Shown: in pieces, positions 27,485-32,676 of the stretch
Layout: every line of letters starts with the position of its first letter
How positions within the stretch are numbered: the stretch's first letter is position 1
Assembly (NCBI RefSeq): GCF_013402875.1
Contig: NZ_CP058579.1
Span: 2,480,001 to 2,544,000 of the forward strand
DNA: 64,000 nt
DNA from: Halorarum salinum
GTDB taxonomy: Archaea > Halobacteriota > Halobacteria > Halobacteriales > Haloferacaceae
Reading direction: 5' to 3'
Position numbers and translations under genes: made by a program
Notes under the pieces: generated by a model
What the model was told of the DNA's origin: nothing
The model's input: only the letters and a program-made list of their open reading frames with translations
Database searches by the model: none

Positions 27485-27815
27485 CTCGACTCGAACGCAC
27501 CGTTTCTCACGTCTCGGCGTAGCGAGTCGCCGATCGCGTCGCCGGTCGAGCGCCGACCGTCCGTGGTCGACCGGTTCGTTGCTCGGCCTCTCGGCTACAC
27601 GGACTACGGGTTCCGTCCTGCCCGCCGTCGATCCCGGAACCCTCTCCGTCCGTGCGCTCTGGTCCCGGTTTCGTATTTGAACGTTCGGCCGAGGCCCGCG
27701 ACTCCCGATGCGGTCGGCATCGCTCGGCGTTCGAACGCGTCGGACGTGCACGCGAAGCGCACGACGGGAACCGGTATCCCGAGATATATACCACCCCGAG
27801 CCGAACCCCGGGCCG
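27485..27815. other. Intergenic region before gshA
   Basis: This 331-base gap holds the gshA promoter (TATA at 27785-27790) at its right end. I see no tRNA, no repeat and no frame of coding character elsewhere in it. Confidence 0.6.
27785..27790 (+). promoter_or_regulatory. TATA box for gshA
   Basis: The hexamer tatata lies 26-31 bases before the ATG at 27816, so the mRNA should start at or a few bases before the start codon. Confidence 0.65.
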
Positions 27816-28919
27816 ATGGAGACTGGTTCGCGGGAGTCGTTCACGCGGCTGGGTACCCTCGGGGTCGAGGAGGAGTTCTACATCGTCGACGACGCGGCGC
27901 GCCCCGTCTCGGGCATCGACGAACTCGTGTACGGCGACGCGGACCCGCCCGAACCGCTCGCCGGGCGCCTCGACCACGAACTGTTCAAGTTCACGATCGA
28001 GACCCAGACCCCGCTCGTCGAGGACCCGACGGCCGTCGACGACCACGTCACGGCGGTCCGCGACGCGCTCGTCGAGCACGCGACCGACCACGGCTACGGC
28101 ATCGCCGCCGCGGGGCTCCACCCGGCCGCGAGGTGGCGCGAACTCGACCACGCGGAGAAGCCCCGCTACCGGTCCCAGCTCGACCGGATCCAGTACCCTC
28201 AACATCGCAACACGACCGCGGGCCTGCACGTCCACGTCGGCGTCGACGACGCGGACGAGGCCGTGTGGGTCGCGAACGAACTCCGGTGGTACCTCTCGCC
28301 GCTGCTCGCACTGTCGGCGAACTCGCCGTTCTGGAACGGCTTCGACACGGGGCTCGCGTCCGCGCGTGCGAAGATATTCGAAGCGCTGCCGAACACGGGC
28401 ACCCCCACCAGGTTCGCCGACTTCGAGACGTTCGAGGCGTTCGAACGACGGATGGTCGAGCACGGCTCCATCGAGGACCGCGGGGAACTGTGGTACGACG
28501 TTCGACCCCACACCGAGCACGGGACCGTCGAGGTCAGGGCCCCGGACGGTCAGGCCGACCCCGACGTCGTGTGCGCGTTCGTGGAGTTCGTCCACGCGCT
28601 CGTGATCGACCTCGCGGAACGATACGAGGACGAACGAACCCCGAGCGACGCGGGGAGCGACGTCGGGGACGGCGGCCTCCGTCGGGAACTGCTCGACGAG
28701 AACAAGTGGCGGGCGATCCGCCGCGGGCACGACGCGTCGTTCGTCGACAGGGACGGCGAGTCCGTGATCGACCTCGCGGGGGCGATCGATCGGGAGTGCG
28801 ACAGGTTGGGCGTCGACGGGGTTCGGGACCTTCTGGACCGCGAGTCCGGCGCGGAACGCCAGCGTCGGATCCACGAGACCGGGGGACTCGACGAGCTCTG
28901 CCGGTCGCTGCTGGTTTAG
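27816..28919 (+). CDS. gshA: Glutamate--cysteine ligase (haloarchaeal GshA, GCS2 family)
   Basis: The 367-residue enzyme condenses glutamate and cysteine to gamma-glutamylcysteine, the main low-molecular-weight thiol of haloarchaea, which lack glutathione. The GCS2 hallmarks are visible: [11 protein letters not shown] near residue 12, [12 protein letters not shown], the HPAARW stretch, [12 protein letters not shown] near 132 and [16 protein letters not shown]. Length fits the family (about 360-370). It is the most direct reason to expect gamma-glutamylcysteine-dependent enzymes nearby, including the glutaredoxin-DinB fusion 3 kb downstream. The start follows a TATA box by 26 bases. Confidence 0.94.
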
Positions 28920-28973: not shown

Positions 28974-29561
28974 ATGGCTACCGACGACGACTCGGGGGAC
29001 CGGGACCAGGGGCAGACCGGCGAACCGGACGACGGCGGAGGGGACGAGCCCCGTGGCGCCAGGGAACGACTCGAAGAGGGCGCGGGCGACGTCGCCGAGA
29101 GCTTCGACAAGCGTGCGGTCGATCTCCTGTCGTGGCTCCTCGACACGGAGACCCGCGCGAGGATCTACGTGTTCCTCCGGCAGCACCCGAACGCGACGAG
29201 CGACGAGGTGGCCGACGGAACCGGGCTCTACCCGAGTACGGTCCGGGAGGCGCTCGCCGAACTCCACGAGGACGGCACCGTGTCGCGACGGAAGCGGGAG
29301 GCGTCGGGCGCCGGAAACAACCCGTACGAGTACGAGGCGATCGCGCCGTCGAAGCTCGTGGAGGGCGTCGTCGAGCAGGTCCAGTCGGAGCTGAACACGG
29401 TGTTCAACCTCGACCGGCGCCTCGGCACGGACGCCAGCGACGAGACCGAGCCGGTGACCGTCTCGGTCGAGACCGACGACGACGCAGGGGAGGAATCCGT
29501 CGACGCGGCCGTCGACGCCCGCGGTGACGGATCCGACGACGAGAGCCCGAACGGCGCGTAG
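28974..29561 (+). CDS. Winged-helix transcriptional regulator
   Basis: The 195-residue protein has a winged-helix domain at about residues 45-115 (LLSWLLDTETRARIYVFL, then SDEVADGTGLYPSTVREALAEL as recognition region and EYEAIAPSKL). A helical segment follows and the last 45 residues are an acidic tail. The first 40 residues are also acidic and Gly-rich. The DNA-binding domain resembles the TrmB/ArsR-like group common in haloarchaea. It lies between gshA (54 bases) and coaD (36 bases), all on the plus strand, so a shared transcript is possible; its regulon is unknown. Confidence 0.85.
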   Translation: MATDDDSGDRDQGQTGEPDDGGGDEPRGARERLEEGAGDVAESFDKRAVDLLSWLLDTETRARIYVFLRQHPNATSDEVADGTGLYPSTVREALAELHEDGTVSRRKREASGAGNNPYEYEAIAPSKLVEGVVEQVQSELNTVFNLDRRLGTDASDETEPVTVSVETDDDAGEESVDAAVDARGDGSDDESPNGA

Positions 29562-30331: not shown

Positions 30332-30640
30332 TCACCACGTCGGGGGCGTGAACCCCGCGTCCTCGAGGATGGGCTTCCAGTGCTGCTGGACCGAGAGCCG
30401 GGTCACGCCCATCGCGTCGGCGACGCTGGTCTGTGATCGCTCGTCGCCGGCGACGAGCGCCCCGGCGTACAGCGCCGCCGCCGCCATCGCGGGCTTCGAC
30501 CGGTCGGCCTCGGGGACGTGCGAGAGGAACAGGTCCGTCGCGTTCGACCGCGCCTCGCCCGACAGGTCGAGCGACTCGGCCGCCCGCCTGAGGTCCCGCA
30601 GCCACTCCTCGTTCTCCACCTCGTCGCTCGCCCGGTACAC
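30332..30640 (-). CDS. Single-cyclin-repeat TFB-like protein
   Basis: The 102-residue protein resembles one cyclin fold of archaeal transcription factor B. The segment AMAAAALYAGALVAGDERSQ and the helix-turn-helix-like TSVADAMGVTRLSVQQHWKP match the second cyclin repeat of TFB, which contacts the BRE. There is no zinc ribbon, no B-finger/linker and no first repeat, so it cannot be a full initiation factor. It may bind DNA or act as a dominant competitor or regulator. Its 3' end converges with the small membrane protein gene 13 bases away. Similar short proteins exist in haloarchaea, labelled transcription initiation factor IIB family. Confidence 0.7.
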   Translation of the reverse strand: MYRASDEVENEEWLRDLRRAAESLDLSGEARSNATDLFLSHVPEADRSKPAMAAAALYAGALVAGDERSQTSVADAMGVTRLSVQQHWKPILEDAGFTPPTW

Positions 30641-30856: not shown

Positions 30857-31678
30857 CTACTCGTTCCACACCTTCCGGGGCATCGGGAGCCCCTCCCACA
30901 GCGCCGGATCGATCGGGTCGGCGACGTCCACGTCCAGTTCGTTCTCGAGTATCCACTCGAACTGTCGCACGTGTTGGCCCGTGTGCCACGTCGTCCGCTC
31001 GAAGAACTCGTGTTTCGTCGGCTGTCCCCAGAAGACGTCGGCGGTTTCCGACCACTCCGCCGTTCGTCCTGGCCCCTCGAACCAGTCCCGGAATCGACTC
31101 CGGACGGACCGCCCGTACGTCGAGAGCGCGACCGTCGAGTGGGGGTCCCAGTCGTGTTCCATCCGGGGGACGCCATCCATCGGGACGCCGGCCTCGTGCA
31201 TGACGAACACGTCCGGGAGGCTGAAGACGTGCCGGACGAGTTCACCGTAACTCCGCGGCCTGTTCGGGATGTCGGTGTGTAGCTCCGCTTCCGGTACGCG
31301 TTCGAGGTACCGAAGCGTCGTCGAGAGCATGACGTCGAGCCGGTCGGACAGTTCCTCGACCGGCAACGGTTCGGCTTCGTGGTCGATTCCGACGAGGTCC
31401 GCGACCTTCGGGACGTCCTTTCCGTCCGCCCAGTCGTCGCCGACCCTGACGACCGGGACGTGCTCGGGGAGCCCGTGCTCGGCCATCTCCCCGATGATCT
31501 CCGGATCCGCACCCCTGACCCCTATCGGCGACGGGTCCGCCGGCTCATCCGCCGCGTCGTTCGATCCCACTACGTTGTGCGAGACGAACTCGACCCCGTT
31601 GCGTTCCAGGAACTCCTTGACTCGAAGACAACTCGTACAGCCAGTCGCCCAGTAGAGGTGCGTGTCTGGTGTGGACAT
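30857..31678 (-). CDS. Glutaredoxin-DinB fusion protein
   Basis: The 273-residue protein joins two domains. Residues 4-85 form a glutaredoxin/thioredoxin fold with redox motif Cys14-Thr-Ser-Cys17 in YWATGCTSCLRVKEFL and a VPVVRVGDD segment preceding the usual cis-Pro strand. Residues about 105-270 form a DinB four-helix bundle, with metal-type His residues in ELVRHVFSL and WHTGQHVRQ. DinB/YfiT proteins include thiol S-transferases that use mycothiol, bacillithiol or glutathione. A thiol-transfer or thiol-reduction role with gamma-glutamylcysteine is therefore attractive here, given gshA nearby, but it is inference. The N-terminal domain alone would be a plain glutaredoxin. Confidence 0.85.
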   Translation of the reverse strand: MSTPDTHLYWATGCTSCLRVKEFLERNGVEFVSHNVVGSNDAADEPADPSPIGVRGADPEIIGEMAEHGLPEHVPVVRVGDDWADGKDVPKVADLVGIDHEAEPLPVEELSDRLDVMLSTTLRYLERVPEAELHTDIPNRPRSYGELVRHVFSLPDVFVMHEAGVPMDGVPRMEHDWDPHSTVALSTYGRSVRSRFRDWFEGPGRTAEWSETADVFWGQPTKHEFFERTTWHTGQHVRQFEWILENELDVDVADPIDPALWEGLPMPRKVWNE

Positions 31679-31866: not shown

Positions 31867-32676
31867 ATGTCTCCTCCCGCCGACCTGCTGTCCGACCTGG
31901 TGGCGGACGTCGACGAAACCTTCCTCTTCTCGCCGACCGGTTCCATGTACGACCGGTTCCTCGAGGCCGACGAGCCGGTCGTCGTGGTCGCCGCCGGAAA
32001 CGAACACGACGCCGAGCGGTACGTCGAGTTGCCGCTCTCGTTCGAGAACGTCCGCGACCGGATCCGGTTCGGCGTCGAGGGCGCGATGGACAAGGACTAC
32101 GTCGAGGACGGCGACACGGTCGCCTGCGCGGTGGGCGTCCTGGACGAGGCCATCGACGCCGTCATCCGGACGACCGTCTCCGCGTCGATGCACTCGGGCA
32201 TCTACGACCTGTTCGCCAACTCGCGGGCGGACCCGAACGTCATCCGCGACGTGTTCGACGTCGCCATCGAACTCGGGAAGAAGGGCCAGAAGGGCAAGCC
32301 GGTCGGCGCGCTGTTCGTCGTCGGCGACGCGGGGAAGGTGATGAACAAGTCCCGCCCGCTCTCGTACAACCCGTTCGAGAAGTCCCACGTCCACGTCGGC
32401 GACCCCATCGTGAACGTGATGTTGAAGGAGTTCTCGCGGCTCGACGGCGCGTTCGTCATCAGCGACTCGGGCAAGATCGTCTCGGCGTACCGCTACCTCG
32501 AACCCGCCGCCGAGGGCGTCGACATCCCGAAGGGACTCGGCGCCCGGCACATGGCGGCGGGCGCCATCACCCGGGACACCAACAGCATCGCCATCGTGCT
32601 CTCGGAGTCCGACGGGCTGGTCCGGGCGTTCAAGGGCGGGAAACTGCTCCTCGAACTGGACCCGGAGGAGTACTGA
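31867..32676 (+). CDS. dacZ: Diadenylate cyclase DacZ
   Basis: The 269-residue protein makes cyclic di-AMP from two ATP. The C-terminal DisA_N domain (about residues 120-265) has the DGA motif at Asp193-Gly194-Ala195 (RLDGAFVISDSGKI) and the RHxAA motif at Arg227-His228-Met-Ala-Ala (GARHMAAGAIT). The N-terminal 115 residues are an archaeal DacZ-specific region. DacZ is known from Haloferax, where c-di-AMP level is tied to osmotic control and too much is toxic. The gene sits 3 bases before an MscS-type channel gene, suggesting cotranscription and an osmotic link. The message is probably leaderless or nearly so. Confidence 0.94.
   Translation: MSPPADLLSDLVADVDETFLFSPTGSMYDRFLEADEPVVVVAAGNEHDAERYVELPLSFENVRDRIRFGVEGAMDKDYVEDGDTVACAVGVLDEAIDAVIRTTVSASMHSGIYDLFANSRADPNVIRDVFDVAIELGKKGQKGKPVGALFVVGDAGKVMNKSRPLSYNPFEKSHVHVGDPIVNVMLKEFSRLDGAFVISDSGKIVSAYRYLEPAAEGVDIPKGLGARHMAAGAITRDTNSIAIVLSESDGLVRAFKGGKLLLELDPEEY

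Follow-up and report, generated by a model that had tools for sequence, protein, structure and literature searches.

The window analysed here, a 64,000-nucleotide stretch of the Halorarum salinum genome, encodes a protein in which a glutaredoxin (Grx) precedes a DinB helical bundle, not far from gshA. This raises the question of what chemistry the two domains carry out together, and whether the nearby gene reveals the thiol on which they act. A sequence-only reading of the DNA had described a CTSC glutaredoxin and a DinB domain with an intact HxxxHxRQ segment within one protein, and this description agrees with the Pfam matches, a predicted structure and 53 homologues. The reading had also connected the protein with gamma-glutamylcysteine through gshA, a connection that fared less well. 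The positions of all features are collected in Table 1.

The open reading frame starts with ATG, encodes 273 residues and fills exactly the span given for the gene in Table 1. The N-terminal half matches Pfam Glutaredoxin (PF00462) at residues 8–45 (E 6.6e-6, 26.7 bits against a cut-off of 22.9), and the C-terminal half matches DinB_2 (PF12867) at residues 114–239 (E 1.3e-6, 29.3 bits against a cut-off of 24.8). Both domains are present in all 53 homologues of alignment A2, and homologues in other haloarchaea are 68–72% identical to the window protein over its full length; the gene and the fusion are therefore genuine and not chance products. A whole-genome search found a single copy, which, together with the two domains in every member of A2, shows that the fusion is not a sequencing join. 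A diadenylate cyclase (DacZ) gene (window 31867–32676) lies divergent from it.

Table 1. Positions of the features discussed, in window coordinates except for the last five rows, which are numbered within their own loci.
Feature	Position	Strand	Basis or description
Grx-DinB fusion gene	30857..31678	minus	ORF and translation; Pfam; 530 relatives in genome contigs
Glutaredoxin domain (residues ~3–99)	31382..31672	minus	Pfam PF00462; AlphaFold model; structure matches
CTSC active-site motif (C14, C17)	31628..31639	minus	Both Cys invariant in 53 homologues
Loop insert (residues ~41–57)	31508..31558	minus	Gap in bacterial rows of alignment A1
DinB/YfiT four-helix bundle (residues ~103–261)	30896..31372	minus	Pfam PF12867; Z 14.9 to 6iz2 (DR0053) and 3gor
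H150, predicted metal ligand, helix 2	31229..31231	minus	Invariant in 53 homologues; predicted helix 144–162
H232 and H236 (HTGQH), predicted metal ligands, helix 4	30971..30985	minus	Invariant in 53 homologues; predicted helix 222–247
gshA, glutamate-cysteine ligase	27708..28919	plus	NF010045, 656 bits against a cut-off of 395
L100	1531	reverse	TGA-form relative
L101	1531		TGA-form relative
L102	268		TGA-form relative
L103	1528		TGA-form relative
L098	1525	reverse	TGA-form relative, Pseudomonadota

The AlphaFold2 model, built on alignment A2, has a pLDDT of 89.8 and a pTM of 0.87. Its predicted Grx domain was compared with known structures using VIA-align and matches BC3987 (3zit, Z 11.2), cGrx1 (7c10, Z 10.0) and NrdH (Z 9.7). 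With a predicted thioredoxin fold (Z about 10–11), a PF00462 match over the cut-off and an invariant CxxC, this half qualifies as a redoxin. It shares the fold, the CxxC and a Val-Pro pair (V74-P75, invariant) with cGrx1, NrdH, YruB and Uxx-star; in contrast to these proteins it is joined to a DinB domain and scores below the cut-off of every curated NCBIfam Grx subtype (Grx3, mycoredoxin, NrdH, YruB and Uxx-star). The Grx half is closer to redoxins of the NrdH, YruB and cGrx1 types than to the classic glutathione glutaredoxins. The main haloarchaeal subgroup has a loop insert of about 17 residues (positions 41–57), which is modelled with a pLDDT below 50 at residues 41–46. Copies from Halorubrum and Natronomonas (L021:5001–5750 and L022:1296–2048) form a separate haloarchaeal subgroup and are about 53–56% identical to the window protein over a shorter matched length (about 250 residues).

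For the predicted DinB domain, compared over residues 103–258, the structure matches include DR0053 and 3gor (Z 14.9), the mycothiol S-transferase of M. tuberculosis (Z 12.9), maleylpyruvate isomerase (2nsg, Z 12.3; 2nsf, Z 11.7) and OvsA (Z 11.6). The HxxxHxRQ segment reads HTGQHVRQ (residues 232–239), and the third histidine is H150. Structure prediction had been suggested as a check of the metal site, and the model places all three histidines on the expected helices, H150 on helix 2 and H232 and H236 on helix 4, which is the canonical three-histidine arrangement at the level of helices. The predicted four-helix topology and the three-histidine site assign the domain to the DinB/YfiT superfamily (S-transferase-like, STL). 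B. subtilis BstA-H, of the same superfamily, are metal-dependent thiol transferases in which three histidines are the only fully conserved residues; the metal histidines of BstA are H67, H160 and H164 (PMC5815605). In the 53 homologues of the fusion, the invariant residues include C14, C17, H150, E227, R228, T229, W231, H232, Q235, H236, R238 and Q239. A decayed or inactive fusion that has lost its function would fit the patchy distribution among haloarchaea, but is highly improbable given that every residue of catalytic type is invariant across phyla and that the nearest haloarchaeal copies are 66–72% identical.

The four-helix bundle, with one histidine on helix 2 and an HxxxH on helix 4, is common to the fusion, BstA-H, the M. 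tuberculosis mycothiol S-transferase and DR0053. These relatives are single-domain proteins, whereas the fusion adds an N-terminal redoxin, and its thiol and metal are predicted. Proteins of the EgtB/OvoA/OvsA type and the mycothiol-dependent maleylpyruvate isomerase resemble the fusion in carrying the DinB fold within a two-domain protein; their partner domains, however, are not glutaredoxins. EgtB reportedly uses gamma-glutamylcysteine (PMC5815605). Like the glutathione S-transferases (GSTs), including the haloarchaeal Xi class, the fusion has in its general plan a redoxin fold ahead of a helical domain, but its helical half is a DinB bundle with a predicted metal site, and the whole-chain TM is about 0.3. 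Membership in the GST family was rejected: the window protein has no GST domain match, its C-terminal half is DinB and not GST_C, and GST_N_3 gave a single weak match among the 53 homologues.

The position of gshA relative to the fusion differs from the 3 kb upstream that had been described. The gshA gene ends 1.9 kb from the fusion and is on the opposite strand, which places it past the 3' end of the fusion gene and not upstream. A TrmB-like winged-helix gene, a cytidylyltransferase-like gene, a TFIIB-repeat gene (minus strand) and a tRNA-Leu lie between the two. All 145 haloarchaeal genomes sampled contain gshA; full-length fusions were found in four of them, a count that leaves out partial weak matches (E 3e-5 to 1e-3) in seven other haloarchaeal genomes. 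In the other three carriers the two genes are 2.2–2.5 Mb apart or on separate contigs, and no gshA was found in the flanks, up to 5 kb, that were retrieved for other haloarchaeal carriers. Since gshA is universal and the fusion rare, and since the genes are on opposite strands here and unlinked elsewhere, their closeness in the window looks like chance. An operon with gshA was rejected because of the strands, the intervening genes and the lack of linkage in other carriers. The version given in the sequence-only reading, an enzyme dedicated to gamma-glutamylcysteine with a functional tie to the adjacent gshA, could draw on the short distance and on the use of gamma-glutamylcysteine by haloarchaea (PMC7278568), but is very unlikely in view of this arrangement, of the 145 to 4 disparity, of the separation in the three other carriers and of the chiefly bacterial membership of the family. 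The gene-linkage argument is thus largely refuted. The TrmB-family gene (window 28974–29561) is directly 3' of gshA on the same strand and may encode a regulator of thiol synthesis; the TFIIB-repeat gene (window 30332–30640) encodes a 102-residue protein with a single TFIIB-type repeat.

What remains is a widespread and uncharacterised two-domain family whose two active sites appear intact from their sequences, and for which no describing paper was found. Scanning one genome from each species yielded 530 relatives; the best 80 of these are mostly from Alpha- and Betaproteobacteria, with a few from haloarchaea and one from a Chloroflexi metagenome-assembled genome (MAG). Plasmid copies occur in Roseomonas, Variovorax, Caballeronia and Rhizobium and, where annotated, are mostly named 'DinB family protein' or 'glutaredoxin domain-containing protein'. 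These proteins share the architecture and motifs of the window protein at 28–47% identity. Bacterial members differ from the haloarchaeal ones in having a shorter loop past the second strand and in being often located amid catabolic genes. Among 398 genomes sampled evenly from the phylum of genome G147, only one besides that at the centre of the sample reached E 1e-25, which indicates that the fusion is widespread but thin. Five of 400 Chloroflexota genomes carry it, and two surveys returned the same five carriers. No relative was found in the viral contigs searched.

The haloarchaeal copies form one clade (support 100/100) on a long stem. With the tree rooted on distant relatives that bear an in-frame TGA, this clade is nested among bacterial sequences, with the root and the donor uncertain. 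The fusion is therefore a member of a bacterial two-domain family and no haloarchaeal invention; on the simplest reading of the sequences it probably entered haloarchaea from bacteria by gene transfer. What is new is the uncharacterised architecture, as the two component domains are already known.

The family is mainly bacterial and most carriers have glutathione genes. Of 40 carrier genomes, 34 gave strong matches to glutathione synthetase. Five others, none of them from Chloroflexota, contain GCS2, and the last one is the Chloroflexi MAG. Glutathione is widespread in Proteobacteria regardless of the fusion, so these genes are consistent with thiol use and do not prove it. The five Chloroflexota carriers, some of which may be incomplete MAGs, gave no match to GCS2 (gshA-type), glutathione synthetase (gshB) or BshC in a search that covered these genes and whose controls behaved as expected; those thiols are thus not required family-wide. 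Common occurrence of the fusion in organisms devoid of such thiols had been named as an observation that would contradict the proposed thiol chemistry, and these five carriers provide it in part, for the gshA-type, gshB and bshC genes. As the known thiol of haloarchaea, gamma-glutamylcysteine is still a possible partner there. An archaeal thiol review makes no mention of DinB (PMC7278568). The idea of a thiol-dependent DinB/YfiT enzyme with a redoxin is supported in general, in contrast to its special tie to gshA.

Four relatives from Chloroflexota (L100–L103) and one from Pseudomonadota (L098) have an in-frame TGA exactly at the codon of C14, and the remainder of each protein follows downstream, including all three histidines. 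In all five genomes SelB scores over the cut-off and a tRNA-Sec is present at close to 70 bits; in the window genome and in G147, with the Cys form, no SelB was found over the cut-off. Together, these observations point to selenocysteine (Sec) forms of the fusion. Plasmid searches with a Sec-form protein and with the window protein gave one identical set of 13 records. The four Chloroflexota genes have in common an ACGAAAG-N5-CTTTCG element at an identical offset after the TGA, from which L098 differs, and the element was found at this place in none of 86 Cys-type sites examined. The element uses codons that are uncommon in these genes, which are GC-rich: CTT accounts for 2–4 of 26–32 Leu codons. 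No SECIS match to Rfam was obtained in the Sec loci. Folding energies are modestly better than those of shuffled sequences (z-scores 0.9 to -2.2), so the hairpin just 3' of the TGA is a good candidate for a SECIS-like element, not a proven one.

Selenocysteine is normally retained at a redox nucleophile, which argues that C14 is that nucleophile and that the glutaredoxin half probably functions as a redox centre. In these distant relatives Sec would occupy the same place as in glutaredoxin-like redoxins. The Sec forms, the most interesting by-product of this work, thereby give an unusually clear hint to the residue of the redox chemistry. A literature search found no description of a Grx-DinB fusion or of a DinB selenoprotein, and DinB is not mentioned in the selenoproteome papers examined, so that the TGA-bearing fusions are a candidate selenoprotein family, unnamed in those papers.

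We tentatively favour, at somewhat less than even confidence, a DinB transferase or isomerase that depends on a metal and a thiol and carries its own redoxin; haloarchaea would have received it from a bacterial family by gene transfer. H150, H232 and H236 most likely ligate a divalent metal in the DinB bundle, which would activate a low-molecular-weight thiol, presumably glutathione in Proteobacteria; gamma-glutamylcysteine is the most abundant candidate in haloarchaea. The activated thiol may attack a small electrophile or isomerise it, and the dithiol redoxin, with C14 attacking and C17 resolving, may then perform a redox step, for example the resolution of a mixed disulfide or the reductive release of the thiol. 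If gamma-glutamylcysteine is the haloarchaeal thiol, this could be the first enzyme of DinB type to use it in archaea.

The resemblance of the Grx half to NrdH/YruB-type redoxins counts against such a thiol-dependent enzyme. NrdH receives its electrons from thioredoxin reductase and not from a small thiol. The fusion might likewise be a reductase that needs no small thiol, with thioredoxin reductase recharging the NrdH-like Grx and electrons passing to a substrate at the DinB metal site. This alternative, which we regard as unlikely but worth serious consideration, would explain the closeness to dithiol redoxins of the cGrx1, NrdH and YruB types, the existence of Sec forms, and the Chloroflexota carriers without matches to GCS2, glutathione synthetase and BshC, the genes searched there. 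It is opposed by the ability of nearly all proteobacterial carriers, and of the haloarchaeal ones, to make glutathione or gamma-glutamylcysteine, and by the use of thiols in the characterised DinB relatives (PMC5815605). An undescribed enzyme class is also conceivable, and doubtful at present, that would combine in one chain a thiol step activated by a metal with a redox step carried out by a dithiol or selenol. Its natural selenoproteins would be found in Chloroflexota and in one or more Pseudomonadota genomes, and its haloarchaeal members would have adapted to gamma-glutamylcysteine.

The neighbouring genes at the bacterial loci were called by a simple GC-frame method and are approximate. 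Genes for small-molecule catabolism are often found there, in support of the favoured transferase or isomerase: an isochorismatase-family hydrolase is present in 18 loci, with N-carbamoylsarcosine amidohydrolase and 3ot4 as the nearest solved relatives, and further neighbours encode an oligopeptide ABC transporter, an AtzE-like amidase, a LeuCD-like dehydratase, AtuA/DUF4387, luciferase-like oxidoreductases, CoA-pathway enzymes and TTT/TRAP-type transporters. A thiol-dependent cis-trans isomerase or lyase in the catabolism of unsaturated organic acids, with the Grx holding the thiol as a counterpart to the mycothiol-dependent maleylpyruvate isomerase, would suit the hydrolase, amidase, dehydratase and TTT/TRAP-type transporter genes as well as the fold match to 2nsg and 2nsf. 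We consider it rather improbable, as the operon contexts vary widely across lineages, the haloarchaeal copies lack such a context, and an isomerase needs no dithiol or Sec redox centre. The lineage-dependent neighbourhoods imply no single substrate; a thiol- or redox-dependent helper step on reactive intermediates fits them better than one fixed pathway.

A conserved haloarchaeal neighbourhood was looked for and not found among the loci examined, whose neighbours include malic enzyme-phosphotransacetylase, SDR, lipoate ligase, integrase and bactofilin genes; the malic enzyme neighbour is common only to L017, L018 and L004. In SAR116 and Rhodospirillaceae-type genomes (L093:7311–7628, L084:5933–7327 and relatives), an AtuA-family gene directly follows the fusion, with DUF4387 after AtuA in four of six loci and an LLM-type oxidoreductase upstream, forming a conserved block. 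The plasmid operon of Roseomonas marmotae (L012:4309–7376) comprises an ABC peptide transporter, an isochorismatase-like hydrolase, Grx-DinB, an AtzG-like protein and an AtzE-like amidase, and possibly serves the catabolism of an N-carbamoyl or amide compound.
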